A stretch of DNA of 64,000 bases from Nitrospinia bacterium. GTDB lineage: Bacteria > Nitrospinota > Nitrospinia > Nitrospinales > JAJDAT01. The translations under genes were made by a program, and so were the position numbers. The DNA lies in assembly GCA_029261715.1 (NCBI GenBank), contig JAJDAT010000014.1, forward strand, positions 124,001 through 188,000. Reading direction: 5' to 3'. The notes below the pieces were generated by a model. It was given only the letters and a program-made list of their open reading frames with translations, did no database searches and was not told the DNA's origin. Below, one piece after another: positions 2,371 to 54,672 of the stretch (position 1 is its first letter; each line of letters opens with the position of its first letter).

Positions 2371-4227
2371 TCAGACAATTGCGATTAGATTTTGGGCTCT
2401 TTCTTCTATTCTAGTGTTTTCTACTAACCTTCTGAAAGATTGTAAAGCGGTTGTTTGAACATTTTTTTGAAATCCCTCCGCCACTCCCAAGGGATTATTT
2501 GATTCTATCACGATATTATCTTTTTTAAGATCAATATCTCCAATGTTTTCATTTAAAATTCTCTCCAACCCAGACTCTAAAGCAGGCAACAACCCAGTCT
2601 CAGGGTTTGTAAAAATATCTATAACCGTTTGTGGTCTTGTGGAAAATGCTCGTTTTAAATTCGCTTCATTAACAGAAATAGTGTTGTCATTTTCTGTTTT
2701 AATTCCAAAAGAACTTAATCGATTTCTGATTTCGTTTGGCAGGCTAGCAAATGGAGTAGTAATCCCTTCCTTGATTTTTTCTAGAGAATTTGTAATGGAT
2801 AACTCCTGTACAACTTTTTTATCAGAGCCCACAACATTTAATCCTAAGCTACGTAATTTCAAAGGATCTGGTCGAATCGTTTCAACATTCTCTGAAAGAG
2901 AATTCAAATTTTGAATATTATCTTGGGATTCTCCAATTAATTCTTGTCGAATGGATTGAATTTCAGGATCTCTTTCAAACACTCGAGAAATCGTTAGAGC
3001 TTGATTAACTTGCCTAACAACCTCATTAAATTCATCAAAAAAGTTTTGGGCCAGATTTACAGCATTTTGAGGATCAGAAAATACTTGTACTTCCGTCTCT
3101 AAATTTGAAGATTTTTTTATCTCAAGCTCTACCCCCTCTACAACATTGTCAATTAAGGAAGTAGAGCTTTCAACAAGAGATTCGTCTATTTTTATAAAAG
3201 CAGATCGACTCTCTCTATTTAAATTTACTGGTGGATTTTGAGAAAAATCAAACTGTCTTTCCTTAACCACGGGGAAACCTTTGTTGTTCGTCCCTATAAC
3301 ACCAATCGCCAACAAGATACCATCGTCATCGTCAAGCTCAATATCCGCAGCTCCTTCCGCTGTGCTCCTTAGAACCAAACGGTTATCTTCAATGGAGGCG
3401 GTTAGCTTTATCTGATCACTTCCACCATCTAATCTCTCGTTGTTATTAACGTCTTCAGAAGCATCTAAAACGCCATCGCTATCTTTATCTTCAATAATAA
3501 AAACTCCAGGACCAAATTCGCTAGGATCGATCGTGAGGACATCAATTCGACCATTCTGATTAAAATCTTCCTCTAAATCCAGTTGCCCGTTTTTGTTTAA
3601 ATCTTCGCCAAAATTTATTTTATCTTTTATATTTCTAATAGTGTCCGTGGTTTCAACGCTTACCTCAAAACCATTAACAACAAAACTTCCAGATAAACCT
3701 AATGGTTCTAATGGCGAGGTTTGCTGATCGGAAACCAAAACTGCGTTCACAGCATTTTGTCTGGGCACAACTGAAAAGCTTCCTACATTCGCTCTGCTAG
3801 AAGCGGTAGCTGCTACAATGTCTTCACGAGATGAACGAGCCGACAAAGAATTTAAAGCATCTTCTTCCTGCAATTGTGTCGTTAAACGACTTAATCCTCT
3901 AACTGATTTTCTGAGCTTTTCCAAAGTTTCAACTCGAAGGTCGACAAACTCAGACTTGTTTTGAATCGTCTCATTGACAGGCAAACGATTAGCGCGTAAA
4001 TTTTCGGCAATAAAATTAATCGCTTCATTCACTCTAAAACCTGCCACAGGGCTGGTTAATTCCAAACTGGGTTTATTATTAGAAGTTGTATTGAAAGAAT
4101 CTAAAAGAATTCCTCGAACATCAGAGGAAAAACTATCATCAGTGTTTAATTTTTTGAAAGGAAGGTCGCCCGTTGAGGATGGGTCTTTCAAAGCAAGAAT
4201 CGAATTTATTAATCCGTCAATTTGCAT
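2371..4227 (-). CDS. fliD: Flagellar filament cap protein FliD, with a calcium-loop insert
   Basis: A 618-residue protein with FliD architecture. The N-terminal helical part (DGLINSILALKDP, then a helix around 90-130) is followed by the GSFVVNGFEVSV beta segment (about 180-191). The FliD C-terminal pattern is seen around 340-420, including IDNVVEGVELEIKK and AQNFFDEFNEVVRQVN. FliD caps the growing filament and folds exported flagellin. The unusual part is an insert at about 209-267 with four D-x-(N/D)-x-(N/D)-(G/E)-x-x-D loops, at D209-D217, D221-D229, D247-D255 and D259-D267. These look like EF-hand or thrombospondin-type calcium loops. It is the first gene of a three-gene flagellar set. Confidence 0.9.
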   Translation of the reverse strand: MQIDGLINSILALKDPSSTGDLPFKKLNTDDSFSSDVRGILLDSFNTTSNNKPSLELTSPVAGFRVNEAINFIAENLRANRLPVNETIQNKSEFVDLRVETLEKLRKSVRGLSRLTTQLQEEDALNSLSARSSREDIVAATASSRANVGSFSVVPRQNAVNAVLVSDQQTSPLEPLGLSGSFVVNGFEVSVETTDTIRNIKDKINFGEDLNKNGQLDLEEDFNQNGRIDVLTIDPSEFGPGVFIIEDKDSDGVLDASEDVNNNERLDGGSDQIKLTASIEDNRLVLRSTAEGAADIELDDDDGILLAIGVIGTNNKGFPVVKERQFDFSQNPPVNLNRESRSAFIKIDESLVESSTSLIDNVVEGVELEIKKSSNLETEVQVFSDPQNAVNLAQNFFDEFNEVVRQVNQALTISRVFERDPEIQSIRQELIGESQDNIQNLNSLSENVETIRPDPLKLRSLGLNVVGSDKKVVQELSITNSLEKIKEGITTPFASLPNEIRNRLSSFGIKTENDNTISVNEANLKRAFSTRPQTVIDIFTNPETGLLPALESGLERILNENIGDIDLKKDNIVIESNNPLGVAEGFQKNVQTTALQSFRRLVENTRIEERAQNLIAIV

Positions 4228-4270
4228 TGGTATATGCTTTATTAAACTTAGGCGTTTTTTTCAATAAAAT

Positions 4271-4303
4271 AAAAACTTAAAAGCTAAAGCTTTTAAGTTT
4301 TTT
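4271..4303 (-). terminator. Intrinsic terminator between the Gln-rich gene and fliD
   Basis: A perfect inverted repeat of about 14 bp per arm (AAACTTAAAAGC paired with GCTTTTAAGTTT, loop TAAA) flanked by T-runs on both strands. It lies 65-100 nt past the stop of the minus-strand Gln-rich gene and 44 nt before fliD. It should therefore end the Gln-rich transcript and separate it from fliD. Confidence 0.7.
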
Positions 4304-4311
4304 GCCGATAA
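4285..4311 (+). promoter_or_regulatory. Near-consensus sigma-28 (FliA) promoter facing right
   Basis: TAAAGCTT (4285-4292), an 11-nt spacer, then GCCGATAA (4304-4311). The enterobacterial FliA consensus is TAAAGTTT-N11-GCCGATAA, so 15 of 16 positions match with exact spacing. It overlaps the terminator hairpin and points into the antisense strand of the Gln-rich gene. No plus-strand gene begins until 5671. Confidence 0.5.
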
Positions 4312-4367
4312 ACACAATAAGGCTAAGAGGATCAAACCTTAAGCCGGGATTAAAAAAATATATTTAT

Positions 4368-5354
4368 CTATATCAACTCGTCTACGTTTCTACCAACCTG
4401 CGTTTGAACAGATACAGGGTCCTGGTTTCTATCTTCCTGCCTTGAAATATCTTGCCTATCTTGCTGTTGATCGTTCGTCTGAGAATCAATCTCCTCTTGT
4501 TGAGCCGGTCTAACCTCTTCTGTCTGTCCAGTTTGGTTCTGATTAGCTGGGCTTGTCTCTTGAGCTGCTGATTGTTGGGTATCCCCTAAATCTGGATTTT
4601 GTCTTGGGGTTTCCAGAATTTGATCGCGTTCTGTTTCCCTAGCGGCAGTTTGACTAATCCCCTCCCTCGGTTCTGGAGTCTGATTTTCAGTATTTTCTGT
4701 AATTCTATTTTGTACTGTATTTTGGTTCTGCTCTGCTTGAGCGCCAGCTTCTTGTTGCTGATCCACCTGTTGCTGTTCTAATCGAATGTCCTGCTCAGAT
4801 TGCTCTGAAACTTCTTGCCTTTCTGCTCGTTGATTTTCTGATTCAATCCGTTCGCCCACAGGCCCCGTATTATCTCTATTTTCAATTGGATTATTTTGGT
4901 TACCTAATGGATTAACTTCTGAATCTTCACGCAATTCCACACCGCTTCCTAGCTCTTGTCGACCAGAAATATCTCCAGATACTTCAGCTTCTTGTGGGAT
5001 TCTTTGATCAATAGGAAAATTTCCAGCCTGATTTGCGCCAGGAGCGTTTCCTAAGCTATTTGGGTCTCCTACCTCTCTAATATTTTGCTCTTCTGGGATG
5101 GGAGCGCTGGGTGTCGCAAAAGCTTCAGCTTCGGTTTCATTAGGAGCAAGATCTTCAATCCCGCTGCTAAGAGCATCTTGTCTTCTTGCTGCCTCGCTAA
5201 ACTCTACACGATCATCCGCCCTACCTCGAGCAGGATTAGTCTCAATTTGTTGTAATGTATTTTGATTTTCTCTTTCGTTAGAGTTTTGCTCAGGTTCCGG
5301 ATTAATCCTTGGAACGTCTCCTCGAAGAAATGGACTTTCAGATACTTCAGCCAT
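4368..5354 (-). CDS. Gln/Glu/Asn-rich disordered protein of the flagellar cluster
   Basis: A 328-residue hydrophilic protein made mostly of Q, E, N, R and S, with many QQ and NQ runs and no predicted fold, signal peptide or membrane segment. The start chosen is ATG at 5354, which has GGAGGG 7 nt upstream; an upstream in-frame start at 5378 has no such site. Near the N-terminus is RVEFSEAARR, a D/R-V-x-(F/I)-S-x-x-A motif like the one in the 96-residue protein of this cluster. It has a sigma-28-type promoter and its own terminator. A FliK-like hook-length role is conceivable from the Gln-rich composition, but no FliK C-terminal domain is visible. Confidence 0.7.
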   Translation of the reverse strand: MAEVSESPFLRGDVPRINPEPEQNSNERENQNTLQQIETNPARGRADDRVEFSEAARRQDALSSGIEDLAPNETEAEAFATPSAPIPEEQNIREVGDPNSLGNAPGANQAGNFPIDQRIPQEAEVSGDISGRQELGSGVELREDSEVNPLGNQNNPIENRDNTGPVGERIESENQRAERQEVSEQSEQDIRLEQQQVDQQQEAGAQAEQNQNTVQNRITENTENQTPEPREGISQTAARETERDQILETPRQNPDLGDTQQSAAQETSPANQNQTGQTEEVRPAQQEEIDSQTNDQQQDRQDISRQEDRNQDPVSVQTQVGRNVDELI

Positions 5355-5670
5355 TGGGGCTCCCTCCATTAAAATCAACCATTTAGACCATATTGCATAA
5401 GATTTCCGCGCTTAGTAAATACTTTCCCATTTCCTTATCGGACGCGCTTTAGAAAAACTTTAGCTTTTTTTTTAAAATTTAAATTTATAGATATCTTCAT
5501 TTTACTCCATTTCTAGAAACAAAAATGAGATATTTAAAAATGCTTAATAAAAAAGGCTTTGAAGATTATCCTAATACATGGCAAAAAAACTAATTATAAC
5601 GATAAAAATTATCCCTTTTAATCACTTCATAATAAAAAACTAATCATTTAAACCGCATATCATCGAACCA
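5355..5670. other. Divergent intergenic region
   Basis: An AT-rich gap between the divergent Gln-rich gene and the SGNH/TPR gene. It holds the minus-strand sigma-28-type promoter at 5435-5462. A 22-codon open frame (5525-5593, plus) has no ribosome binding site and is not called. No clear promoter for the rightward gene was recognised. Confidence 0.5.
5435..5462 (-). promoter_or_regulatory. Sigma-28-type promoter of the Gln-rich gene
   Basis: Read on the minus strand: TAAAGTTT (5462-5455, perfect -35), a 12-nt spacer, then TCCGATAA (5442-5435, 7 of 8 to GCCGATAA). The spacer is 1 nt longer than the usual 11. Transcription would start about 75 nt before the ATG at 5354, marking the gene as a late flagellar gene. 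Confidence 0.5.
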
Positions 5671-7635
5671 ATGTTCAGAAAAATCAGCTTTTCGCTTATT
5701 TATACAATCCTAAGTATTATCTTAGTATTTTCTTTTCTTGAAGTTTCTCTTCGCCATCTTTCCCCAAAGGAAATTAGTTGGGTACCGCTAGTCAATAAAT
5801 TTGGAACTTTCGCAAGCTATCGAAAAACTGGTTATAAGGCCAAACAGAAATATGCAGGAATCCCATATACAATAGAAATTGATGAGAATAATCTTAGAAA
5901 CTTTAAAAATATTCCCTACAAAAAACCTAAAAATACTATACGAATCCTTAGCCTTGGAGATTCACTTTTTGAAGGACCGGGATTAGAAAAAAACGAACTA
6001 TTTTCTTATTTTTTAAATCGAGAGTTAGAAAATAATATTTCAGATGTAAACTTTGAAGTGATCAATGGAGCAGCCAATGGATCTTTTTTATTAGACTACT
6101 ATTTATACCTAAAAAATGAAGGTCATAAATTCCTTCCAGATATTGTTTTAATACCTTGGTCTAAATATGATTTCGACGAAAAGGCTTTAAATTTTATTAA
6201 TTTTAATTCAATTCGTTTTCAAAAAACGGGAACCAAGAATATTCGAGTTGATTTGGAAGGTTTAAAAGTTGAACCGCCGAAGTCATTTATTAAACTTTTG
6301 ATGACTAAATTAAATGAATCCTACGTTTACGGTCTTTTTTCTAAAAACTCTCAATTGTTGGAAAAATTCAGGTACCGATTAAATAATTTATATAAAGATA
6401 GAAAACGAGAAGAATCTAATGTTAAAACTCTTCAAAAAAAAATTATTAAAAACTTGAACTCCTCTAAAGAAACAATCAAAAAAGTTAGTATCTTTTTTAA
6501 TAATGAACATCTTGGCGATTTATCTAAAGACTCCCAAAATATTTCCCCCATTATTTTAAATCTTATATTTAAAAGCACCGTTGACATTATCCAAAAGTTT
6601 GGAGCGCAACTAATTATCATTGAAATGCCCGACGATGAAGAGGCCTTAGGTGTTCAAACTTTCAGGATTCCGACAGATTTCTTTTCACAGTTAGATGCAA
6701 AACGGCTCAACTTGATACAAAAAACAGCTGAGTTTCAAAAAAGAAATATCATTCCACTTTACATACCAGGAGATTTTCATTGGACTCCTGCAGGTAGTTA
6801 TTTGACCGCAATTTTAACTTTTAATTATTTAGTGGAAAATGTACTACCTCCCAACATATCCAAACAAACACGCCCAATCGATTTAAAAAACATAAAATTC
6901 GTCCAAAAGATTCGTTCAGCCAATGAGAGAATTCTCAAGTATAAGGATTGGTCGCAATATCTACTTTATTTGAAAGCAAATAGTTTAAGAAACCAAAGGA
7001 AATATAATCAAGCAATTCTAATTTTTGAAAAATATTTAGAAATTTCGAAGAACGATTATTATGCACACTATAAGCTTGGCTTGATTTATTTTCGCAAAAA
7101 ATATTTCGCAAAAGCGGAAAATCATTTCTTAAAAGTGGCAGAATCTTCAAAAAGACTAAAACTAAAAAGTTTATTTAAACTTGGACAAACCTATGATGAA
7201 TTGGAGAAATATTCAAAAGCAATAAAAACTTTTAAAGAATTAATCAAGGAGTGTGAGAATCTTAATATTACATCTAGTTATGAGGCTTATAACGCTTTAG
7301 GTCTAGCCTACAGAGACTTAAACGATTTTGAAAATGCTGAAATCTCCTTTAAAAAAGCCACAAAAATGAATCCTAAGAGTATTTCTTATTGGCAAAACTT
7401 AGGAAATTTATATTTTGACAATAAAAAGTTTCGACAATCCATTTTAGCTTACAAAAATCTTATAAATTTAGACTCTACAAACGTGAAAATTCTAACTATT
7501 ACGGGTTTAGCTTATCTGCAGATGTACGAAGTAAAAAGTGCCAAAGAGATGTTTGAAAAAGTTTTACAAATACAACCTACAAACAAAATGGCTCGGGCAA
7601 TCTTGAGTCAACTAACAAATCAAACCGCACAGTAA
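5671..7635 (+). CDS. Membrane-anchored SGNH hydrolase-like protein with TPR repeats
   Basis: A 654-residue protein. Residues 7-27 form one membrane anchor. A SGNH/GDSL-type domain follows, with GDS at 96-98 (Ser98 as nucleophile), a Gly block in INGAANGS, and the C-terminal dyad D368-x-H370 in DFHWTPAGS. This last motif resembles the D-x-H-W-x-P-x-G of AlgX/AlgJ-like polysaccharide O-acetylation enzymes. From about residue 430 on there are about six TPR units. By family, such proteins transfer or remove acyl groups on exported glycans; the TPR part suggests a partner protein. It stands alone on the plus strand, so its substrate is unknown. Confidence 0.82.
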   Translation: MFRKISFSLIYTILSIILVFSFLEVSLRHLSPKEISWVPLVNKFGTFASYRKTGYKAKQKYAGIPYTIEIDENNLRNFKNIPYKKPKNTIRILSLGDSLFEGPGLEKNELFSYFLNRELENNISDVNFEVINGAANGSFLLDYYLYLKNEGHKFLPDIVLIPWSKYDFDEKALNFINFNSIRFQKTGTKNIRVDLEGLKVEPPKSFIKLLMTKLNESYVYGLFSKNSQLLEKFRYRLNNLYKDRKREESNVKTLQKKIIKNLNSSKETIKKVSIFFNNEHLGDLSKDSQNISPIILNLIFKSTVDIIQKFGAQLIIIEMPDDEEALGVQTFRIPTDFFSQLDAKRLNLIQKTAEFQKRNIIPLYIPGDFHWTPAGSYLTAILTFNYLVENVLPPNISKQTRPIDLKNIKFVQKIRSANERILKYKDWSQYLLYLKANSLRNQRKYNQAILIFEKYLEISKNDYYAHYKLGLIYFRKKYFAKAENHFLKVAESSKRLKLKSLFKLGQTYDELEKYSKAIKTFKELIKECENLNITSSYEAYNALGLAYRDLNDFENAEISFKKATKMNPKSISYWQNLGNLYFDNKKFRQSILAYKNLINLDSTNVKILTITGLAYLQMYEVKSAKEMFEKVLQIQPTNKMARAILSQLTNQTAQ

Positions 7636-7829
7636 GAATCTTTCCTAAGTTATTTAAAAACTAATGAGTTTCTACCGTTTTTTTGGGAATTGCTGGGAAT
7701 GGATCAAAAATACCAAGTAAGCAGGAGTAACGATAAGACACAAATACTTTTTTTGACTGCTTAAGGTTGTTAAATTGCAGGAACACTTGGTTTGCCAGGG
7801 GGGAATAATTGTCGATTTGAAACCCCTTA

Positions 7830-7994
7830 TCAATCAAAAATGCTACACGCCCTCATCAAACCTTCTTTAAACCAATATTTTAACTTATACCCATTTCGAT
7901 TTAAATAATAGTAACGTATTGAAGGACGCTTGAATTTAGAAGTTTTTTGAGCCATTCCAAACTTGTCATGCTCATTAACGCGTATTTTTTTCAC
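7830..7994 (-). pseudogene. 54-codon frame, possible glycosyltransferase C-terminal relic
   Basis: Starts at GTG 7994, which overlaps the TGA of the preceding fragment. The product is basic and aromatic (RYYYLNRNGYKLKYWFKEG), resembling the RNxxY/K tail found after the catalytic domain of some GT2 rhamnosyltransferases. There is no ribosome binding site of note. It may be a relic or an independent small gene. Confidence 0.28.
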
Positions 7995-8098
7995 TTCCGT
8001 CTCATTGGGACTTTTGGCTGATCGATAGGTCTCTCGATCACCCGGAAATAAATTAACGCTACGACCGAAACGAATAAAAACAAAAAACCTTTATACAA
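7991..8098 (-). pseudogene. 35-codon fragment resembling the C-terminus of an acyltransferase-3 protein
   Basis: A minus-strand frame with one hydrophobic helix followed by YFRVIERPID and a short basic tail. Members of acyltransferase family 3 (OafA-like) end with a last helix followed by a (F/L)xExP sequence, which this matches. The only possible start is TTG, preceded by a stop 15 nt upstream. The fragment is too short to be functional alone. Confidence 0.3.
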
Positions 8099-8273
8099 AA
8101 GAGTTTTCTTTTAACGATTCATCCATAATTTTAATAGCTTTTCTAACAAACTATTAAAAATGCGCCCAGAGGTTGGAGAGTAATAATAAAACTTTCAAGT
8201 TGGAAGCGCTATGCAAAGGGCTAGGAGGTTTTAACTAGAAAAATTAAACTATCTAAAATTAATTAAAAATCTT

Positions 8274-8906
8274 CTAGTTGACTAAATCTTCCATCATTTT
8301 TCGAAACTCAGGAATCAACTCTGACCATTCACGGTAAAAAGGTAAGATCTCATATTCGAGTAAATCAGCTACTAAAACCCAATCTTTATTTTTATTTGCC
8401 TCAACAAGTTGTTGGGTCAAATCAATTAATTGAGTTTGACGTTCTTGAATCGTTTTACCTTTGATTTTTGTGTTTTCAATATCAATGCTTAAAGCTGTTA
8501 CCACTCCATCTAAAACTTGCGATAACCAATCAATACCATCAATAATATTTAGAAAAAATTGATTAGCTTCAGTTTCGTCTTCCATTTGAAATAACTCTGC
8601 CGCTTTTTCAATTCCTGGTATTAATTTTTCTAGATATTGCTCGGCATTCTCTAAATTCTTGTTAACGATCTCTTGTACAGAAACAATTTCAATTTCCAAC
8701 TTTTCTATATCATTAACCAATACCGCACGAAATTCTTGAGCTTTTGATTCTTCAATTTGCAAATCGATAGGGGTTCCATCCAAAATTACAGCGCTCATAT
8801 AAGTTCCAGGAAGAACGGTATTTTTTTGAATCTGGTCTAAAAGCTCCCCTAAAGTATTTCCATGGAAATCCATGGCTTTTTCTACACTGTTTATGAAAAG
8901 TTTCAT
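8274..8906 (-). CDS. Unknown acidic helical protein next to flagellin
   Basis: A 210-residue soluble, acidic and mainly helical protein. The N-terminus (about residues 1-50) looks like a small alpha/beta domain, and the remainder is long amphipathic helices ending in DLLEYEILPFYREW. No family was recognised with confidence. It is divergent from the flagellin gene and shares a 140-nt promoter region with it, so a filament-related role such as chaperone or flagellin-production control is possible. ATG at 8906 is the natural start. It has no membrane segment and no cysteine clusters. Confidence 0.68.
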   Translation of the reverse strand: MKLFINSVEKAMDFHGNTLGELLDQIQKNTVLPGTYMSAVILDGTPIDLQIEESKAQEFRAVLVNDIEKLEIEIVSVQEIVNKNLENAEQYLEKLIPGIEKAAELFQMEDETEANQFFLNIIDGIDWLSQVLDGVVTALSIDIENTKIKGKTIQERQTQLIDLTQQLVEANKNKDWVLVADLLEYEILPFYREWSELIPEFRKMMEDLVN

Positions 8907-8988
8907 AATCTACTCTAAAATAGTTAAGTCTTCGGTCATTTTATTATGCTCGAAGTTTTTATTCAATTCTATTAGCTTTTAAAAGCCA

Positions 8989-9017
8989 TTGACATCAATT
9001 AAAATAAGGATTAATTT
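8989..9017 (+). promoter_or_regulatory. Housekeeping-type promoter of flagellin
   Basis: TTGACA (8989-8994), 17-nt spacer, TAATTT (9012-9017), 30 nt before the flagellin ATG. The -35 is perfect and the -10 is weak. No sigma-28 site was found in this gap. Confidence 0.4.
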
Positions 9018-9046
9018 GGAAATTAAACAAATCAATTGGCTAAATC

Positions 9047-9889
9047 ATGGTATCTCCCATTAATTCAGGTGGCTCTGAAAGCATATTGGGGTCGCTTAGA
9101 CAAAATCGCTCCAATGCCCAAAATTCTATTTCTAGAATAGCGTCTGGGCAACAAACTAGTTTTTCACAAAATCCTTCTGCCTCAGCGCTTTCGGCTCAAC
9201 TTCAATCAGAAATTGAAACGCTTTCGCAAGCTTCTTCCAATATTCAATCAGGGAATAACTTGTTAAAATCTGCTGGAGGAGGGATTGATGCTATTTCCCA
9301 ATTAACCCAGCGAGGTCGAGAAATTTCAATACAAGCCGCAAATGGCACCCTAAGTTCAGAACAAAGAGACGCTTTGGGGCAAGAACTTCAATCTATAACA
9401 AGCGAAATTGACCGGATATCCCAATCAACTGAATTTAATGATCAATCTCTTTTAGACGGCAGTTTAGCGCCAGACTCTTCGCAAAGTCTAGATATCCAAA
9501 CAGGTTCTAGCTCCGGCGACTCTATAAATCTAAATATCATCTCTGGAACTAGTACCTCAGATCTGGGTTTAGACAATTTAGACTTATCTAGCTCAGAAAG
9601 TTCTTTGCAAGCGGCTGAGAGTTTTAGCCAAGCTGAAAATTCTCTTAATGCTATTCAAGGACAAATTGGCGCAACTTCAAACCGACTTCAATCAACAGCA
9701 AATAGCCTTTCCCAGCGAACAGAAGGTCTGGTTCAAACGGTATCAAATCTAACAGGAACAAATATACCTGAAGAAATTACTAGCTTAAAATCAAACCTCA
9801 CTCAAATTCAGGCATCTTTAAGCGCTTTAGGAACCCAAAACAACCAAAACGAAGCAACTATTGGCCGGCTACTAAACATTCGCGCTTAA
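9047..9889 (+). CDS. fliC: Minimal flagellin
   Basis: A 280-residue flagellin built almost only of the D0/D1 helical core. The N-terminal helices (residues 10-140) include ISRIASGQQ, RGREISIQAANGTLS, the SEQR-type turn and TEFNDQSLLDG. The C-terminal helices (about 200-280) include LNAIQGQIGATSNRLQS. The middle (about 145-195) is a short Ser/Thr-rich link with no outer D2/D3 domains. It would be exported by the flagellar type III apparatus and polymerise under the FliD cap. The C-terminus ends RLLNIRA, slightly unlike classic flagellins. FlgL is an alternative, but the N-terminal conservation favours flagellin. The ribosome binding site is weak. Confidence 0.88.
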   Translation: MVSPINSGGSESILGSLRQNRSNAQNSISRIASGQQTSFSQNPSASALSAQLQSEIETLSQASSNIQSGNNLLKSAGGGIDAISQLTQRGREISIQAANGTLSSEQRDALGQELQSITSEIDRISQSTEFNDQSLLDGSLAPDSSQSLDIQTGSSSGDSINLNIISGTSTSDLGLDNLDLSSSESSLQAAESFSQAENSLNAIQGQIGATSNRLQSTANSLSQRTEGLVQTVSNLTGTNIPEEITSLKSNLTQIQASLSALGTQNNQNEATIGRLLNIRA

Positions 9890-13871: not shown

Positions 13872-15938
13872 TTACGTTCCCTCTAATTTAGAAATAATGG
13901 AACGGATTTCGGTCGCTTGCGGTTGGTTCTCATCAAGTTTGAGAGATTCTTTAAAATGATGGATAGCTTTTTCAGGGATTTTCTTGTGTTTATAATAGAT
14001 CAACCCTAGATTTTTATGAATACCGGCTATTTTTGGAAATTGTTTCAAAATACGATCAAAAACCAAAATTGAATCGTCTATATTTCCCACGTTTAAATAT
14101 GCTGTCGCAAGGCTAATGTTTGCAGAAAGAGAAGAAGGCTTTAGGCCTACAGCTTTTTGGAATGCTTCGATCGCTTTAGCATTTTCTTTTACTCCTAAAA
14201 ATGCTCGCCCTAACCCCAGGTACCCTTTAGCTAACTTAGGTTGCAGATCAATGAATTTTACGTAGTTTTTTATTGAATCTTCGTAAAAACCCAATTGCGT
14301 TTCAAGATGAGCTAAGTTAAAAATAGCTTCTGCAAAATACGAATTTCCCTCTATCGCCCTTTGGTAATATCCTCTTGCTTCATGTGGTTTACCCATAACA
14401 TGAAGAGCTTTGGCAAGGTTATAATTGGCAGGCGAATAATCTGGTTTTATGGCGATAGCTTTTCTAAAATATTTAATTGATTCTGGATAATTCTTTAATT
14501 TCCCGAATATATTTCCAAGATTACTAAGCGCAAACACATAATTAGGATTGAGATTTAAAGCGGCTTTAAACTCACTGACAGCTGAAGAATAATCCCCTAA
14601 CTTATCGTATGCTTCGCCTATATTATTATATGGGCGAACAATATTTGGAGCCTTTGTTTTTGCGTCCCTCCATAAAGAGATTTCATCTTTCCATACCTTG
14701 TTACGCTTTGTCGTTAAAACTCCAAAACAAATAAGAATTATTATTGGAAAAACCAAAGCGAACATTTTGTAATTCACTTTCGCAGGAAACTTTTTTCCAA
14801 GCCATTCCAACGCGACTTTACCAAAACTAGAAATCATCGCCGCCATTGCCAATGAAAAACCAGCTAATGGTAAATAGGTTCTATGCTCGACTGCGATATC
14901 AAATAACGGGATAACACTTGAAGTAGGTAAAAAAGTAACGATTCCCCAGAGCATCCCAAAACAGATTATTCTTGATGACGAGGTAAAACAAACCCATAAA
15001 TAAAAACCTATTATTGTAATTCCTAAAAAATTTGACACTCTCATCCAGTCAGAAACTAAAGGAAAGTCAATCTCAATACTCAAATTAAATGGGAAGAAGA
15101 ATTTCCAAAAATATTCAAATGGGATTACAAAAGTTTGGGTTAATAAATAGGTTTTCCAAGTGAATGAGCTAGGGTGCATATTTAGAATAGTATTTTTAAA
15201 CAAAAGTATTCCGCCTAGCACCAAAATAAGGCATAACCCTACGGTACAAATAATTTTAAAATTCTGGCGAATCCAATTTAAAATCGAATACCGTGAAACA
15301 AATAAAAAATGAGCTAAAAAAGCAATGGCTGGGAAAGTAACTACAATTTCTTTACAAAGAAAACCGAAAAATAAACAAACAAAAGATAAAATAAACGGAA
15401 TAATTCCATTTATACTTTTATCGCTAGATTCTACGTTTTTGTGCAAGGACCCATTTCTAGCGCCAATCGCCCTTAAAAAAAATATTGTTGCGGATAAATA
15501 AAAGCATGTCGCCATTATAGAAGAACGGCTAGAAATATAAGTTACAGCCTGAGTATTTAACGGGTGTAATGCAAAAATAGCTGCCGCTAAAAAACCATTT
15601 CTTTTATTTAATAATGGGTCTAATTTTTTGGAAAGAGCGCTTAATTCTAAGGCCAATCGATAAACCAGCCAAACGGCAATCATGTGAAAAGCTATATTGA
15701 AAAGATGATAGCTCCAAACTTGAACTTCGCTAAGGTAGTAATTTAAATTAAAAGAAAGAATGACCAATGGCCTTTGAAAAAAGCTAAACAAAAACATCGG
15801 AATCTTATCTAGTCCTCGAATCCAAGGTTTTTGCAATATGGCCGTTAAATCGTCAAAATGAAAAGAATTTAAATAGATATTTGCGTAAACTACACTGACC
15901 AGCCCCGCTAATAGCAAATAAGGTTTTTTTTGTATCAT
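13872..15938 (-). CDS. TMTC-like GT-C membrane protein with TPR repeats (copy 1)
   Basis: A 688-residue protein. The N-terminal half (about 1-425) has about ten membrane helices and the early NSFHFDD acidic loop. The C-terminal half (about 435-688) has about seven TPR units, such as AYDKLGDYSSAVSEFKAAL. The layout matches TMTC-type proteins, GT-C mannosyltransferases with TPRs that act on proteins in eukaryotes; bacterial members are presumed to glycosylate exported proteins or glycans. It is a close tandem paralogue of the gene just upstream, with near-identical first 45 residues, differing most in membrane loops around 160-270. Activity and substrate are inferred. Confidence 0.83.
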   Translation of the reverse strand: MIQKKPYLLLAGLVSVVYANIYLNSFHFDDLTAILQKPWIRGLDKIPMFLFSFFQRPLVILSFNLNYYLSEVQVWSYHLFNIAFHMIAVWLVYRLALELSALSKKLDPLLNKRNGFLAAAIFALHPLNTQAVTYISSRSSIMATCFYLSATIFFLRAIGARNGSLHKNVESSDKSINGIIPFILSFVCLFFGFLCKEIVVTFPAIAFLAHFLFVSRYSILNWIRQNFKIICTVGLCLILVLGGILLFKNTILNMHPSSFTWKTYLLTQTFVIPFEYFWKFFFPFNLSIEIDFPLVSDWMRVSNFLGITIIGFYLWVCFTSSSRIICFGMLWGIVTFLPTSSVIPLFDIAVEHRTYLPLAGFSLAMAAMISSFGKVALEWLGKKFPAKVNYKMFALVFPIIILICFGVLTTKRNKVWKDEISLWRDAKTKAPNIVRPYNNIGEAYDKLGDYSSAVSEFKAALNLNPNYVFALSNLGNIFGKLKNYPESIKYFRKAIAIKPDYSPANYNLAKALHVMGKPHEARGYYQRAIEGNSYFAEAIFNLAHLETQLGFYEDSIKNYVKFIDLQPKLAKGYLGLGRAFLGVKENAKAIEAFQKAVGLKPSSLSANISLATAYLNVGNIDDSILVFDRILKQFPKIAGIHKNLGLIYYKHKKIPEKAIHHFKESLKLDENQPQATEIRSIISKLEGT

Positions 15939-16018
15939 GTAATTTTAAAACTATCTTTCCTAAACTTTTTAAAACATTTTTTCAAAAAAACCCTTAAAAA
16001 TCTCTTTTGGTTTTCTAA

Positions 16019-18088
16019 TTATTGTTCTACTTCTAACTTGGAAATAATAGAGCGAATTTGAGCCGCGTGCGGTTGATCTTTATCAATTTTGAGAGATTCT
16101 TTAAAATGAAAAATAGCTTTGGGAGAATTTTTCTTGTGTTGATAATAAATCAATCCCAGATTTTTATGGATCCCAGCTATCTTAGGGAATTGCTTCAAAA
16201 TACTATCAAAAACTAAAATGGCATTATCGAAATCCTCCAAGTTTGAATAAGCCATTGCTAAATTGACTTTAACGGAAAGAGAAGAAGGACCTAATTCTAA
16301 AACTTTTTTGAATGCCTCAACCGCTTGAGAGTTTTTATTTAGGCTCATTAATGCTCGACCCAATCCCAAATAAGCCTTATAAAATTTTGGCTGAAGCGCA
16401 ATAAACCTTTTATAATATTCTACTGAATATTCATAGCGACCTAATTCCATTTCAACGTGAGCCAAATTAAAAATAGCTTCTGCAAAATATGATTCCGCTT
16501 CTATTGCCTCTCTATAATAATCTCTTGCTTGGCGTAGCTTACCTTCTATATGTAGAATTTTTCCAAGATTGTATATAGCGGGCGCATAATCTGGTTTTAT
16601 AGCAATAGCTTTCCTTAAATACTTAGCCGATTCTGGATAATTCTTTAACTTTCCATATATATTTCCAAGATTACCTAGAGCAAATACATAATTTGGATTA
16701 AGGTTTAGAGCAGCTTCAAATTCCTTAATAGCAGAATCGTAATTTCCTAATTTATCGTAGGCTTCTCCCACATTATTATATGGACGAACAAAATTTGGAG
16801 CCTTTAATTTTGCATCGCTCCATAAAGAAATCTCATCCTTCCATACTCTGTTTCGCTTAGTTGTTAAAGTTCCAAAACAAATAATCACTACTATTGGAAA
16901 TACCAAACCCAAAAAACTGTAATTTATCTTTTTAGGGAAATTTTCTCTAAACCAATCAACCGCCAGTTTACAAGAGCTAGAAATAATGGCTGCCATTGCT
17001 AAAGAAAAACCAGCTAAAGGCAAATAAGTTCTATGCTCCGCCGTAATATCCAGCAAGGGAACAATACTCGAGGTAGGCAATAAAGTAATAATTCCCCAAA
17101 TCATTCCAAAGCGAACAATTTTTGACGAAGTCGTAAAACTAACCCACAAATATAAACTCAGTATGCCCACTCCGAAGAAGCTTGAAGCTCTGGTCCAGTC
17201 CGAAATTAGAGGGAAATCGTTTTCTATGCTTAAATTAAAAGGAAAAAAGAATTTCCAAAAATATTCAAATGGAATTACAAAGGTCTGAGTTAATAAATAG
17301 GTCTGCCAGGAAAATGTAGCTGAAGATAATATTAAAAAATTCCACTTAAAATAAATTGTTTCAATAAATATCAAAACTATGCCTGTCGCAACTATACAAA
17401 CAAGCCTTAAGTTTTGACGAATCCAATCTAAAACTGAACTTTGTGAAAAAAATAAAAGATGCGCTAAAAAGGCTAGCGCTGGAAAGGTAAATACAATCTC
17501 TTTACAAAGAGTGCCTAAAAATAGAAATACCAAAGATAAAAAAAAAGGGATATTCATATTTGTATTTTGATAGTTTGGTATCACGCCTTTTTGAGAAGCG
17601 TTATTTTTAGCGTTAACGCCTTTTAAAAAAAATATCGTAGCGCCTAGATAAAAACATGTGGCCATTATAGAAGAACGGCTGGAAATATAAGTCACAGCTT
17701 GGGTATTTAATGGATGTAGCGCAAAAAGGGTTGCGGCTAAAAAACCATTTCTTCGGTTTATTAATGGGTCGGAATTTCCAGAAATAAACGTTAATTCCAA
17801 AACCAATCGATAAATCAACCAAACAGCGATCATATGGAAAGCTATATTAAAAAGATGATAGCTCCAAACTTGAAACTCGCTAAGAAAATAGTTTAAATTT
17901 AGAGAAAGGATAACCAGTGGCCTATGGGCGAAACTAAACAAAAACATTGGAATTTTGTCCAACCCTCGAATCCAAGGTTTCTGTAAAATAGTTGTTATGT
18001 CGTCAAAATGAAAAGAATTTAAATAAACGTTGGCATAAACGACACCGACCAATCCAGCTAATAACAAATAAGGTTTTTTTTGCATCAT
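16019..18088 (-). CDS. TMTC-like GT-C membrane protein with TPR repeats (copy 2)
   Basis: A 689-residue protein with the same plan as its neighbour: about ten membrane helices with an NSFHFDD acidic loop (residues 23-29), then about seven TPR units from residue 435. It lies 80 nt upstream of copy 1 and 11 nt downstream of a GT4 gene, so the three are probably cotranscribed. The two copies align without gaps over most of their length, with divergence in the luminal loops, pointing to a local duplication followed by change of substrate or partner. Start ATG 18088; a second ATG follows directly and is equally possible. Confidence 0.83.
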   Translation of the reverse strand: MMQKKPYLLLAGLVGVVYANVYLNSFHFDDITTILQKPWIRGLDKIPMFLFSFAHRPLVILSLNLNYFLSEFQVWSYHLFNIAFHMIAVWLIYRLVLELTFISGNSDPLINRRNGFLAATLFALHPLNTQAVTYISSRSSIMATCFYLGATIFFLKGVNAKNNASQKGVIPNYQNTNMNIPFFLSLVFLFLGTLCKEIVFTFPALAFLAHLLFFSQSSVLDWIRQNLRLVCIVATGIVLIFIETIYFKWNFLILSSATFSWQTYLLTQTFVIPFEYFWKFFFPFNLSIENDFPLISDWTRASSFFGVGILSLYLWVSFTTSSKIVRFGMIWGIITLLPTSSIVPLLDITAEHRTYLPLAGFSLAMAAIISSSCKLAVDWFRENFPKKINYSFLGLVFPIVVIICFGTLTTKRNRVWKDEISLWSDAKLKAPNFVRPYNNVGEAYDKLGNYDSAIKEFEAALNLNPNYVFALGNLGNIYGKLKNYPESAKYLRKAIAIKPDYAPAIYNLGKILHIEGKLRQARDYYREAIEAESYFAEAIFNLAHVEMELGRYEYSVEYYKRFIALQPKFYKAYLGLGRALMSLNKNSQAVEAFKKVLELGPSSLSVKVNLAMAYSNLEDFDNAILVFDSILKQFPKIAGIHKNLGLIYYQHKKNSPKAIFHFKESLKIDKDQPHAAQIRSIISKLEVEQ

Positions 18089-43455: not shown

Positions 43456-44412
43456 ATGAACGTTTTAGTTACTGGCGCGGCGGGTTTATACGGTATTCAT
43501 TTAGTAGACGAATTAGTGAAACGTCCGGATATTAATAAGGTCATAGGTATAGATGACTTTTCCCGCGAATACTTCGAAGCCGACCCTTTTATAAAATCTT
43601 CAGAGTTTGAATCAAAATTTACTTTAATAAGAAAAAAGTTTTATGACTTAACTGTCGAAGAATTGGATGATATGGATTTAGACGCTTTCGTCCATCTGGC
43701 GGCACATATATCCATTCCAGAATCTATGGAAAAAGCGGACGATTATTTTAGAAATAACGAGTGGGGCACTTTTCATCTGATGCAGTTATTATTTCGCACC
43801 AAAAAATGGCCTTTGATGATATATGCATCTTCTCCAGAGGTTTATGGTAATCCAGTATACACTCCAATGGATATACACCATCCCATGCTCCCAAGAAGTA
43901 TTTATGCTGCAACCAAATTAGCCGCTGAAAAACATTGCAAAGCAATGCATGAATGGTATAAATACCCCGTAATCGTAATTCGTAATTTCAACACATTCGG
44001 TGAGAATCAAGATATTTCAGGATACGCTGGGGTTGTTTCTACATTTATCCTGAAATCATTAAAAAACGAATCAATAGTTATTCACAACTCAGGAGAACAA
44101 ACGCGAGACTTTCAATATGTAAAAGACGCAGTTCGCGCATACTCTTTAGTTATTAATAAGGAAAAGAGTTTAGCTGGCGAAGTTTTCAATATTGGAACTC
44201 AAAACCAAACGTCGATTAAAAACCTAGCGGAAACCATTAAGCGATTAGCAGGCTCTCAATCAGAAATAAAATTTGAGTCTGGAAGAGCCGCAGACTTAAT
44301 GTCACTTGAAGCGGATTATAAGCTCATAAAAGAAAAAACTGGGTGGGAGCCGCAATATTCACTCGAAGAAGGACTTAAACGAACTATTGAATGGTACAAA
44401 CAACGAATATGA
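43456..44412 (+). CDS. NAD-dependent nucleotide-sugar epimerase/dehydratase (extended SDR)
   Basis: A 318-residue extended SDR. GAAGLYG is the NAD motif (7-13), the active site has the S-x(n)-YxxxK pattern with YAATK (about 156), and DFQYVKDAVRAY is the substrate-side motif. It acts on a UDP- or dTDP-sugar to supply a precursor of the surface glycan. The exact sugar cannot be read from the sequence. The TGA overlaps the next ATG (ATGA at 44409-44412), so it is translationally coupled to a second SDR. Confidence 0.9.
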   Translation: MNVLVTGAAGLYGIHLVDELVKRPDINKVIGIDDFSREYFEADPFIKSSEFESKFTLIRKKFYDLTVEELDDMDLDAFVHLAAHISIPESMEKADDYFRNNEWGTFHLMQLLFRTKKWPLMIYASSPEVYGNPVYTPMDIHHPMLPRSIYAATKLAAEKHCKAMHEWYKYPVIVIRNFNTFGENQDISGYAGVVSTFILKSLKNESIVIHNSGEQTRDFQYVKDAVRAYSLVINKEKSLAGEVFNIGTQNQTSIKNLAETIKRLAGSQSEIKFESGRAADLMSLEADYKLIKEKTGWEPQYSLEEGLKRTIEWYKQRI

Positions 44413-45359
44413 AAAAAGCGCTTGTAACAGGAGGCGCCGGTTTTATCGGGCGTTGGTTAGTCAAAAAATTACTTAATGAGGGTATCGATGTCTGGGTAGT
44501 AGATAACCTTGAAAATGGCTGCAAGGAAAACCTCAATGAATTTAAAAATGATTCAAAATTACGAGACGTCGTTTTTGCAGATATTTTAGACGTTCCAAAA
44601 CTGCAAAGCCTTTTTACAGACAAACCCGACATTGTCTTCCACTTAGCGGCCCAAATTAATGTTCATGAAAGCTTAGAAAACCCGGGAAAGTCATATCTAT
44701 CAAATATTCAGGGTACATATAATGTATTAGAAGCTTGCCGCCCAAACCTAACAAAACTAATGCTGATGGGTACATGCATGGTATATGATGTTGCTGATAG
44801 CAAAGGGGCAATTACTGAAAACCATCCCGTAAAACCCGCGTCTCCATATGCGGGCTCTAAATTAGGCGCAGAAGTATTAGCCGAATCCTATTTCCATGGA
44901 TATGGCTTGCCCTTGATCACATGCCGCCCATTTAATACTTATGGCCCATTTCAAAAAAACAATATGGAAGGTGGCGTGGTATCCATATTCGTAAAAAAAG
45001 AATTAGATGGGGAAGAATTGCAAATTTTTGGAGATGGCACTCAAACTAGAGATCTTTTGTACGTAGAGGATTGCGTAGAATTTCTTTTCAAAGCAGCTAA
45101 TAACGAAAAGGCGATTGGACAAATCATCAATGCCGGTTTAGGTGAAGATGTCGCTATTAAAGATTTAGCGGCGATGGTTTGCTCTGATCCTAATCGTATT
45201 AAATATGTCACACATCATCATCCGCAATCGGAGATACAAAAGCTTCTCTGCGATTATTCGAAGGCTAAGTCCATGTTGGACTGGAAGCCCCAAACTGACT
45301 TAAAAACAGGAATTCAAAAAATTCGACAATGGTTTCAAAGCCAACCAGATTTGGGATAA
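44409..45359 (+). CDS. NAD-dependent nucleotide-sugar epimerase/dehydratase (second SDR)
   Basis: A 316-residue extended SDR with GGAGFIG near the N-terminus, YAGSK as active-site YxxxK, and TRDLLYVEDCVEF. The start at ATG 44409 overlaps the previous stop (ATGA); an upstream in-frame start at 44391 is unnecessary. It overlaps the CapF-like gene by 31 nt at its 3' end. Together the three SDR genes form a nucleotide-sugar pathway. Product sugar is unknown; 4-epimerase, 4,6-dehydratase or decarboxylase functions are all possible. Confidence 0.9.
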   Translation: MKKALVTGGAGFIGRWLVKKLLNEGIDVWVVDNLENGCKENLNEFKNDSKLRDVVFADILDVPKLQSLFTDKPDIVFHLAAQINVHESLENPGKSYLSNIQGTYNVLEACRPNLTKLMLMGTCMVYDVADSKGAITENHPVKPASPYAGSKLGAEVLAESYFHGYGLPLITCRPFNTYGPFQKNNMEGGVVSIFVKKELDGEELQIFGDGTQTRDLLYVEDCVEFLFKAANNEKAIGQIINAGLGEDVAIKDLAAMVCSDPNRIKYVTHHHPQSEIQKLLCDYSKAKSMLDWKPQTDLKTGIQKIRQWFQSQPDLG

Positions 45360-46186
45360 CAGGAGCTTCCGGTTTTGTCGGATCACATTTGAAATCGGCT
45401 CTTGAAAAACAACATTCTGTCTTTCAATTTAAAAGAAAGCGGGGAGAAGTACTTCCCGACATTGATCGTCTACAAGAATTTGCCAAAAACGTAGATATCA
45501 TATTTCATTTAGCTGGGGTTAACCGTGGAACCGAGGAAGAAATTGCAACGGGAAATATCCTTTGGACTTACCGTTTAGCACAAGCCCTTAAATCAATAAA
45601 GCCGGCTCCGCGCGTCATATTTGCTTCTTCTTCCCAAGTTTATCGCCCAATTAGTCGACCTATAAAAGAAGCTGATAAACCCAAACCTGAATCTCTATAT
45701 GGATTTGCAAAACTTTCTGCAGAAGAAATTTTGCTAGCCTCTGGTTTAGATTGCATAATATTACGTTTGTCAAACGTTTATGGCCCAGGCTGCCGCCCAA
45801 ACTATAATTCAGTAATAGCGACTTTTTGTCATCGTTCAATAAATCAAAAGCCTCTAACAGTTAATGGAGATGGCTCACAGGGTAGGGATTTCGTTTATAT
45901 TGACGATATAGTACGAGCATTCCTACTATCGGTAAAAATAAAATCAAAAATCAAAACTTTTAATGTGAGCTCAGGTAAAATCATTTCCTTGCGAACAATT
46001 TTAAATCAGGTAGACCGTCAATTGCCTGGATTACAAGTCGAATATAATGAAAACGCAGATATGGGAGGGTTATCTTATTGTTGCGATTTTTCCCGCTTTA
46101 AGGCGCAATCTGGTTGGACCCCAAAAGTTTCTCTCAAAAAAGGAATCAATAACACTCTAGATTTTTTTGAAAATGCGACAAATTGA
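45329..46186 (+). CDS. capF: CapF-like nucleotide-sugar reductase, SDR half only
   Basis: A 285-residue SDR with GASGFVG (about 11-17) and YGFAK as YxxxK. The segment PNYNSVIATFC matches the same stretch in CapF/WbjC, the enzyme that makes UDP-2-acetamido-2,6-dideoxy-L-talose on the way to N-acetyl-L-fucosamine. In known CapF this SDR half is fused to a C-terminal cupin; here it stops and a separate cupin gene overlaps it by 14 nt. Context: third of three SDR genes. The 2-epimerase CapG is not seen in the window, so the final sugar need not be FucNAc. Confidence 0.85.
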   Translation: MVSKPTRFGITGASGFVGSHLKSALEKQHSVFQFKRKRGEVLPDIDRLQEFAKNVDIIFHLAGVNRGTEEEIATGNILWTYRLAQALKSIKPAPRVIFASSSQVYRPISRPIKEADKPKPESLYGFAKLSAEEILLASGLDCIILRLSNVYGPGCRPNYNSVIATFCHRSINQKPLTVNGDGSQGRDFVYIDDIVRAFLLSVKIKSKIKTFNVSSGKIISLRTILNQVDRQLPGLQVEYNENADMGGLSYCCDFSRFKAQSGWTPKVSLKKGINNTLDFFENATN

Positions 46187-46577
46187 AATAACTGAATTAA
46201 AAAAACGATCCGATGAACGTGGCTGGCTAGTAGAAGTTTTACGTGGTGAAGGTATGGGAGAACGTAACGAATTTGGACAAATTTTTGTTTCCGTAGCTCC
46301 TCCAGGTAAGATTAGAGGCAACCATTATCATGATCGAAAAATTGAATGGTTTTGCGTTCCATCTGGAACCGGATTGCTTCTCCTAAAAGACCCAGAAACT
46401 GGTGAAGAAATGGAAGTTGTTCTCGGAGAAAATGAACCAAAAACAGTAAAAATATCGCCTCCAATCATTCATGCCATTAAAAACATTGGAGAAAAAGACA
46501 TGGTTCTAATGGTGTATGTCAACGAAACATTCGATCCTTCCGATCCCGACACGTTTTACAAAAAAATCTTAGAATAA
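46173..46577 (+). CDS. CapF-type cupin domain as a separate protein
   Basis: A 134-residue cupin. It aligns with the CapF/WbjC C-terminal domain: FGQIFVSVAPPGKIRGNHYH, then the metal Glu in RKIEWF, the last His in PPIIHAI, and ending FDPSDPDTFYKKI. The likely zinc ligands (two His, one Glu, one His) are present. In CapF this domain carries out the 3-epimerisation before reduction by the SDR half. ATG 46173 lies inside the end of the SDR gene (14-nt overlap, -1 frame), giving coupled translation; an upstream TTG at 46167 is less likely. Confidence 0.85.
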   Translation: MRQIEITELKKRSDERGWLVEVLRGEGMGERNEFGQIFVSVAPPGKIRGNHYHDRKIEWFCVPSGTGLLLLKDPETGEEMEVVLGENEPKTVKISPPIIHAIKNIGEKDMVLMVYVNETFDPSDPDTFYKKILE

Positions 46578-52107: not shown

Positions 52108-54672
52108 CTATATTTTTACAACTGGCACAATTTCCAAACTTCGTTTCACTTCTCCCCACGCCTCTTCTACTGAAATTGAATACAAACAATCGAGGTGGGA
52201 ACATTCGGGAAACTTTCCATTATCGTAACAAGGAGAACATTCAACCCCCTTGTATAAAGTTGTATTGGTCTTGCCAGGCGGCGCCCAATCTTTTGGATTA
52301 GTAGGCCCATAAAACGATAAGGTAGGAGTAGACATCGCTGATGCGATATGGAGGGGTCCGCTATCGTTTCCAATAAATAAAGAACAAGTCTTAAAAATTG
52401 AAGCGACCTCTCCTAAGCTCAAATCAGTGGCCCCATAACATTGCGGAAGTTGATGTCGAATATCTTTAATCAATTCTTGTTCGTCAGAACTTCCAAATAA
52501 AACAATTTTACATGAAACTTCTGCGCTCAATTTCCTGATTAATTCCACATAGTACTCTTTCGGCCACCTTTTATTGGGCATCTCCAATTTAACATTTTTA
52601 CCTCCTCCAGGAGCAACGGCAATAAGTTTTTCTCCTTCTTGCAAATCCAATGTCTCAATAAAGCTGGAACCGCTAGAGCTTTCATTTTCAGAAACAAAAT
52701 AATAACTTCCTTCGTATTCAGCTTCCATACCTAAAACCCGAAGTAAGTCCAAATAGTTTTCTCTTTCATTTCGCGATGTACGAGGAACAGCTCTATGTGT
52801 TAAAGAAAATCCTTCTCGCCCTCTGGAAAATCCAACACGACAAGAAATTCCACAGATATAAATCAACAAATTAAACGGCCAAGCTCTATGCATAACAAAA
52901 GCCAGGTCAAAGTTTTCTTTTCTTAAGTCTAGGACTATTCTCAACACTTCCTTTAATCTAGCGAATGGAGCTCCTCTATATAAAACTTTATCATCTACTC
53001 GTATGAAACGGTCAATACATGGGTTATTTCGAATACTCTCGTAAGAAAATTTACCTGTTAGCAATGTAATGTCTGAGTTTGGAAACCGTTTTCGAGCTTG
53101 ATCAAAAAACGAGGAAGCCATCACCAAATCTCCCACAGCGCCAAGCTTAATCATTAAAATTCTTTTTGGTTTTTCATCATCGGGGACAAAAGGAATAGAC
53201 GGGTTTTTTCTTTCTGCAGGAAGCTTTTTTAAATCAAGAACTCCGCGTACAACTTTCCAGTCATATTCCGTGAAAGCCCCTAAAACCATCAACAATACAA
53301 AATAAGACCCAAAACTTAATATTAATAATGGTAGTAAGGGAAGCGAAAACATTCCCCATAAAACCACCATCATACCGCCCACGGCAAAAATTGGTCTCCA
53401 TACAGGCGGCCAAAGATCTTTAGGTCCCCAAATATTTCCAATGGTTTTAAAATAAATACAAAATACCAACAATTCCGTAGCGCAAGTTGCAAATGCCGCT
53501 CCCATATATCCCCAAATGGGGATACAAATCGCATTGATCAAAACATTTACACAAGCCCCAATACCGGTAATTTTTAAAACCTTTGACGCCTTGTCCGCTG
53601 ACATCAGCAGATAAGAAACAATATCATTGAGACATAGCAACGGGAGAGCCAATACAACTATCTGTAAAGCATGCCCTGTGCCTTCAAAAGCCGTTCCATA
53701 AAGAGTTTCAACTAAACGCGGAGCTAGCAAAGAAATTGCAGCAGCGGCAGGTAAACTCACTATCAAAAGAAAGCGGGAACCTTCTCTCCAAATACTGACA
53801 AAACTCTTGGATTCGTCGGCATAAGTTTTCGACAACATTGGGAAAATAGCATTTCGAATACCTGCAATCAAAATAACGGAAGCTTCAATCAATTTAAGAG
53901 CAGCCGAATACCAACCCGTTTCCGCTTCTCCTCGAAAGAAAAACAACATCACAGAGTCGATGCGGAAATAAATATAAGTAAATAAAATCGTTCCGCCAAT
54001 GGGAAGGGAAAGAATTAAAATCTCTTTAATTCTCGCACGATCTACAACCCATGGTCGAGAACCATAAAGAGCCTTCATTTTCCATCGAACTATAAATAAA
54101 TTAACTACCGCTGCGCCTAAAAAGGCTAAAGAAAGAGGAACAACTTTATAATCCATTAACAATAAAACCATTCCACCAGCAAAAAACATTCCTCGCTGGA
54201 TAATCATTAAAATCGAAACCAGGGACATGTTTTCAAAAGCTCGAAACACCGCAATATACGTATCCGAATATCCATTTATCAACAAAGCCAAGCCAATAGC
54301 CCAAACCACGAGACGAGCTTCTTCATCTAATGGGAAAATGGCTGGCAACGCTAATAAAATGATTAAAATACCTAGAGATAGTACAGCTTTAAGAAAAAAT
54401 GCATTTCCTAAATAATTGTCGGCTTTATCAGGTTCGCGAGAGATTTCTCTAATCAACAAAGTATTAATCCCGGTATCAGCCAATACAGTCAAAATACCCG
54501 TTATTGAAAATGCAAAGGCAAACGTCCCAAAACCTTTATCGCCTAAATAACGAGCAGCAACAATTTGTGTCGCTAGCGCAATTAATTTAGATATAGTTTC
54601 TGCGGTAAATAAGCGAATGGAGTTTTTTACCAATCGCTCGGCAGTTCGTGTGCTATTTCCTTTAAATTCCAT
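52108..54672 (-). CDS. Polysaccharide flippase fused to GT9 heptosyltransferase domain
   Basis: An 854-residue fusion. Residues 1 to about 465 are a MOP-superfamily flippase (Wzx-like) with 12-14 helices, opening with NSIRLFTAETISKLI and IVAARYLGDKGFGTF. After a short linker, residues from about 500 form a GT9 (ADP-heptose:LPS heptosyltransferase) domain: KRILMIKLGAVGDLVMAS, then APGGGKNVKLEMPNKRWP, and FIGNDSGPLHIASAMSTPTLSFYGPTNP near the C-terminus. The two halves are usually separate proteins. Joining them puts a cytoplasmic transferase on the protein that exports lipid-linked glycan. No stop or frameshift lies between the halves, and the linker (EKPKRILMIK) reads through cleanly. Confidence 0.88.
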   Translation of the reverse strand: MEFKGNSTRTAERLVKNSIRLFTAETISKLIALATQIVAARYLGDKGFGTFAFAFSITGILTVLADTGINTLLIREISREPDKADNYLGNAFFLKAVLSLGILIILLALPAIFPLDEEARLVVWAIGLALLINGYSDTYIAVFRAFENMSLVSILMIIQRGMFFAGGMVLLLMDYKVVPLSLAFLGAAVVNLFIVRWKMKALYGSRPWVVDRARIKEILILSLPIGGTILFTYIYFRIDSVMLFFFRGEAETGWYSAALKLIEASVILIAGIRNAIFPMLSKTYADESKSFVSIWREGSRFLLIVSLPAAAAISLLAPRLVETLYGTAFEGTGHALQIVVLALPLLCLNDIVSYLLMSADKASKVLKITGIGACVNVLINAICIPIWGYMGAAFATCATELLVFCIYFKTIGNIWGPKDLWPPVWRPIFAVGGMMVVLWGMFSLPLLPLLILSFGSYFVLLMVLGAFTEYDWKVVRGVLDLKKLPAERKNPSIPFVPDDEKPKRILMIKLGAVGDLVMASSFFDQARKRFPNSDITLLTGKFSYESIRNNPCIDRFIRVDDKVLYRGAPFARLKEVLRIVLDLRKENFDLAFVMHRAWPFNLLIYICGISCRVGFSRGREGFSLTHRAVPRTSRNERENYLDLLRVLGMEAEYEGSYYFVSENESSSGSSFIETLDLQEGEKLIAVAPGGGKNVKLEMPNKRWPKEYYVELIRKLSAEVSCKIVLFGSSDEQELIKDIRHQLPQCYGATDLSLGEVASIFKTCSLFIGNDSGPLHIASAMSTPTLSFYGPTNPKDWAPPGKTNTTLYKGVECSPCYDNGKFPECSHLDCLYSISVEEAWGEVKRSLEIVPVVKI

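Follow-up and report, generated by a model that had tools for sequence, protein, structure and literature searches.

In Nitrospinota, an SDR and a cupin that in CapF/WbjC/FnlB form one chain are encoded by two adjacent genes, and conservation of this arrangement extends across a bacterial class. On balance, we consider it probable that the pair corresponds to CapF in a conserved, unfused form, older than the fused one, in which two proteins would act on the product of Pal or CapE—the cupin as 3-epimerase and the SDR (here SDR3) as 4-reductase—to give UDP-PneNAc. CapF has been described as a bifunctional enzyme with an unusual two-domain architecture; no earlier description of an unfused CapF was found in the open-licence papers searched.

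The pair lies in a window of 64,000 nt (the whole stretch of DNA analyzed here) on contig C14 of a Nitrospinia bacterium genome of 5.33 Mb in 52 contigs. Other parts of the window hold further features. A single 854-aa ORF (52108–54672, minus strand) combines a polysaccharide flippase domain (PF01943) with a family 9 glycosyltransferase (PF01075); two adjacent ORFs, 688 and 689 aa long (13872–18088, minus strand), carry TPR repeats and are very similar, a tandem duplication; flagellar genes, FliD and flagellin (2371–9889), are separated from the sugar operon by about 35 kb; and the segment 59908–64000 is a probable prophage segment, with an ORF at 63398 that matches Phage_base_V.

The gene pair and its CapF-type features

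The first-pass annotation had described the SDR and the cupin as overlapping genes in different frames, and this is the arrangement found. They close a run of four genes, SDR1–Pal–SDR3–cupin (43456–46577), in which neighbors overlap serially by 22, 31, and 14 nt (Table 1); since all four genes overlap their neighbors, the SDR3/cupin overlap is ordinary operon packing. The overlapping SDR3 and cupin genes would probably be translationally coupled. A promoter and terminator scan gave results at chance level, and Rfam returned no match.

Table 1. Coordinates of the four-gene unit and of motifs within the pair (window positions)
Feature	Position	Strand	Remarks
SDR1	43456–44412	+	Extended SDR, candidate 4,6-dehydratase-type; SSPEVYG motif, NAD-type GIDD after beta-2
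Pal ortholog (SDR2)	44391–45359	+	Overlaps SDR1 by 22 nt and SDR3 by 31 nt; expected to give UDP-4-keto-6-deoxy-L-AltNAc
SDR3 gene	45329–46186	+	285 aa; CapF-lineage SDR, expected NADPH-dependent C4 reductase
SDR3 YxxxK motif	45698–45712	+	Y124, K128, from alignment
PNYNSVIATFC motif	45797–45829	+	Common to SDR3 and CapF
SDR3 stop/cupin start overlap	46173–46186	+	14 nt, different frames
Cupin gene	46173–46577	+	ATG at 46173, 134 aa; CapF-type, expected metal-dependent C3 epimerase
GNHYHDRKIEWF	46317–46352	+	Cupin H51, H53, E58 align with S. aureus CapF H288, H290, E295
Cupin H100 codon	46470–46472	+	Aligns with S. aureus CapF H337

Family models place both genes with CapF. The CapF/WbjC model NF047837 is the top NCBIfam match of SDR3 (112 bits, model positions 5–193) and the cupin covers its positions 250–366, so that the two matches fall in CapF order; the cupin also scores 103 bits against PF14667 (cut-off 28.7). 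Joined, SDR3 and the cupin reach 181 bits against NF047837, whose cut-off of 500 does not discriminate, because S. aureus CapF itself reaches just 388.

The metal-ligand pattern read earlier in the cupin half holds up: H51, H53, E58, and H100 align with the metal-site residues of CapF. In the S. aureus enzyme, His290 is a Zn ligand, and Lys285, Gly286, His288, and Phe297 lie at the inhibitor pocket (PMC5393024). The five best PDB matches of the AlphaFold model of the cupin (mean pLDDT 84.7) are CapF structures, with RmlC-type epimerases next; the closest solved structures are those of CapF (3vhr/4yrd/2zkl/3st7).

SDR3 of the window keeps S100, Y124, and K128, and the CapF motif PNYNSVIATFC is present where the first reading had placed it, in the SDR half. 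More broadly, PxYNSxxxTxC is common to unfused SDR3s and the SDRs of CapF, with YNS, T165, and C167 kept in all 33 unfused SDRs and in nearly all of 23 fused CapFs. R36 after beta-2, which bears on NADPH use, is found in 30 of the 33 unfused and 13 of the 23 fused sequences. The C-terminal third tells the two forms apart: in SDR3 it is a full canonical extended-SDR substrate domain, whereas CapF/WbjC/FnlB lacks this C-terminus and has its own type of region ahead of the cupin. R186 and W263 are invariant in the unfused SDRs and absent in CapF. The predicted model of SDR3 (pLDDT 92) aligns over its whole length with full-length UDP-sugar 4-epimerases and with GDP-4-keto-6-deoxymannose reductase; CapF was not found among its 50 best structural matches.

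Distribution within and beyond Nitrospinota

A search of genomes for other cases, as had been proposed from the sequence, recovered the pair in 37 of 77 Nitrospinota genomes, two of the 37 being judged from a cupin truncated at a contig edge. The SDR stands directly upstream of the cupin in nearly all loci with a long enough flank. Of 28 distinct loci measured in the order, 24 share an overlap of exactly 4 nt (ATGA/GTGA), three of these relying on an alternative GTG start; the remaining junctions comprise the window's own 14-nt overlap, genes that abut, and gaps of 12 and 86 nt. Across the order, identity is 60–71% for the cupin and 43–53% for SDR3. The pair also occurs in three genomes from other orders of the class.

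One-chain CapF (366–390 aa, one frame being shortened by a contig end) is encoded in seven other genomes, none of which carries the pair, and the identity of the fused cupin is only about 30–38%. Two of the genomes with a fused CapF between CapE and CapG (G006 and G009) also have an orphan cupin of 46–49% identity without an SDR (L042, L043).

Outside the phylum, where there are many cupins of about 155 aa, neighbors were examined for the strongest cupin matches. In G342, from another phylum, a standalone CapF-type cupin (50% identity) adjoins a CapE-type gene and a separate RmlD-like SDR (L088, 6338–8633), which we read as a further unfused layout that uses a different reductase. Viral contigs gave no relative, and the plasmid and phage matches examined were only fused CapF or RmlC-like cupins; the named plasmid loci with fused CapF have the gene order CapE–CapF–WecB.

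Proposed substrate and function of the pair

SDR2, directly upstream, matches Pal of Bacillus thuringiensis (6bwl) at 50% identity over 310 columns (345 bits, the next PDB match scoring 161) and is classed as a Pal ortholog. Twelve genomes of the phylum have a Pal ortholog of at least 59% identity, and each of them carries the pair. An SDR1 ortholog is present in 13 genomes, 12 of which carry the pair; the SDR1 orthologs beside the pair in other genomes share 70–79% identity. SDR1–Pal–SDR3–cupin is a conserved four-gene unit. Its neighborhood departs from that of CapF/WbjC/FnlB, which has CapE and CapG as neighbors: in the operon Pal and SDR1 stand instead. It also departs from the Pen/Pal system of B. 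thuringiensis, which serves pseudaminic acid, whereas here the genes after Pal are for CapF-type enzymes and not for pseudaminic acid. SDR1 is not obviously Pen; it best matches UDP-glucuronate decarboxylases (top PDB match, 130 bits), it matches PF02719 only weakly (34 bits), and its SPEVYG motif resembles those of dehydratases and decarboxylases. It is a candidate supplier of the 5,6-ene, the Pen-type product, for Pal.

We take the Pal product, the CapE product, and the CapF substrate to be the same compound. This identity is in line with the pathway of PMC3699295; the chemistry of CapF is treated there and in PMC5393024, and a passage of PMC5109656 gives the Pal product as UDP-4-keto-6-deoxy-L-AltNAc. 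In the proposed route, SDR1, perhaps Pen-like, would act first on UDP-GlcNAc, and Pal would yield UDP-2-acetamido-2,6-dideoxy-L-arabino-hexos-4-ulose, the two replacing CapE in the operon. The cupin would then invert C3 of this product at its metal site, and SDR3 would reduce C4 with NADPH to give UDP-2-acetamido-2,6-dideoxy-L-talose (UDP-PneNAc). CapE and CapF otherwise combine these stages in two bifunctional enzymes. It is a tentative, if serious, possibility that the operon represents an unbundled route to UDP-PneNAc, with SDR1 (Pen-like, from another SDR family), Pal, the cupin, and SDR3 taking one stage each and the pair standing as a living pre-fusion CapF.

A CapG-type 2-epimerase elsewhere could convert UDP-PneNAc to UDP-L-FucNAc. 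Because none was found in the operon (one WecB-type gene lies about 280 kb away in the window genome), the product may stop at UDP-PneNAc, the FnlB product, which is itself used in one capsule (PMC4838161). The earlier view that no other FucNAc enzyme (CapE/CapG type) is certain here, and that the product may differ, is weakened by the upstream Pal, expected to make the CapF substrate.

A known source of the substrate, counted as a Pal, CapE-type, or PseB-type gene, is present in 29 of the 37 genomes with the pair, in all seven with fused CapF, and in one of 33 with neither, a count that ignores kinship. Among genomes at least 90% complete the association is weaker: a source is present in 15 of 20 with the pair and in 4 of 12 others, all four being fused-CapF genomes, and no association with the pair is seen for CapE/PseB taken alone. 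A short CapE/PseB-type gene was not found in the 12 Pal genomes, the window genome included. In eight genomes with the pair (G010, G018, G032, G034, G036, G045, G054, and G064), Pal, CapE, and PseB were not found; four of these are 94–95% complete and a fifth 92%, and the pair of G064 is judged from a truncated cupin.

These eight genomes would fit a reading that we think unlikely, in which the pair acts on a different 4-keto-6-deoxy sugar nucleotide (e.g., a dTDP or GDP sugar) in the manner of RmlC and an RmlD-like reductase and owes only its ancestry to CapF. Nearly all carry an RmlB-like dehydratase, the cupin fold resembles RmlC-type epimerases most closely after CapF, and other PF14667 cupins occur in dTDP-rhamnose gene sets. 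RmlC and RmlD resemble the pair as a separate cupin epimerase and SDR reductase that act sequentially on a 4-keto sugar. The two-subunit form suggested from the sequence is a possibility; the pair may instead act as two separate enzymes, as RmlC and RmlD do. However, RmlC belongs to PF00908, whereas the pair's cupin is of the PF14667/CapF type; SDR3 does not fall in the RmlD clade; the nearest family and structure are those of CapF, not RmlC; and the neighboring Pal is expected to make the CapF substrate. RmlB, RmlC, and RmlD of the window genome are located elsewhere.

Two more specific roles were considered and rejected. The pair does not appear to be the rhamnose RmlC/RmlD of the window genome, which has its own set. 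Nor does it appear to replace a missing RmlD: RmlD is absent from some genomes with the pair, but genomes without the pair also lack it, so there is no clear complementarity.

A further alternative, which we regard as improbable, is that in some lineages SDR3 is a partner or altered enzyme rather than a reductase, the cupin being the main catalyst. Five of the 33 unfused SDRs (L034, L047, L075, L076, and L077), among them all three SDR3s from Pal-carrying genomes of other orders, have Phe in place of the catalytic Y124; none of the 23 fused CapFs does. Conservation is much higher in the cupin than in SDR3, and the two orphan cupins stand without an SDR. Against this, the window SDR3 retains Ser, Tyr, and Lys, and the CapF-specific motif is kept even in the Phe124 orthologs. 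The Phe124 orthologs, together with the eight genomes in which no substrate source was found, allow for a different substrate, or for SDR3 having changed its role, in some lineages.

Origin and significance of the two-gene form

In an SDR tree built on shared N-terminal columns, with GalE-like sequences, RmlB, Pal, SDR1, and RmlD as outgroups, unfused SDR3s and the SDRs of fused CapF form one clade (99/97). The fused CapFs are monophyletic in both the SDR tree (100/99) and the cupin tree (100/100). The SDR tree favors neither a sister clade nor a paraphyletic stem for the unfused SDRs (AU p 0.34). The window genes had been taken for a CapF split in two; because SDR3 has the complete C-terminus that CapF lacks and the fused CapFs form their own clade, an unfused state that is probably ancestral fits better. 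All outgroups are unfused and have an SDR3-like C-terminus, which makes fusion as the derived event the simpler reading. The unfused pair is, therefore, probably the pre-fusion state, older than fused CapF.

Fission of a fused CapF ancestor, with the two parts retained since they still worked, seems to us very improbable. The genes are adjacent and in CapF domain order, and the tree does not reject a single unfused SDR clade beside CapF; but the monophyly of fused CapFs is strongly supported, and fission would not restore the complete canonical C-terminus seen in SDR3. Fission from within the crown CapFs is disfavored by both trees as well as by that C-terminus. An error in sequencing or assembly, or gene decay, as the frame change alone might suggest, is excluded, since the junction recurs in 28 distinct loci and in other orders and active-site residues are conserved, in keeping with the first reading that this is not decay.

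If the pair is an unfused CapF equivalent, as we favor, this conserved form allows testing of what fusion gained, whether channeling, stability, or a changed SDR C-terminus, and it also bears on the order of fusion and divergence. The conserved unit further indicates a second gene set for an L-amino-sugar precursor, based on Pal rather than on CapE, and the annotation of these genes is corrected across the Nitrospinota.
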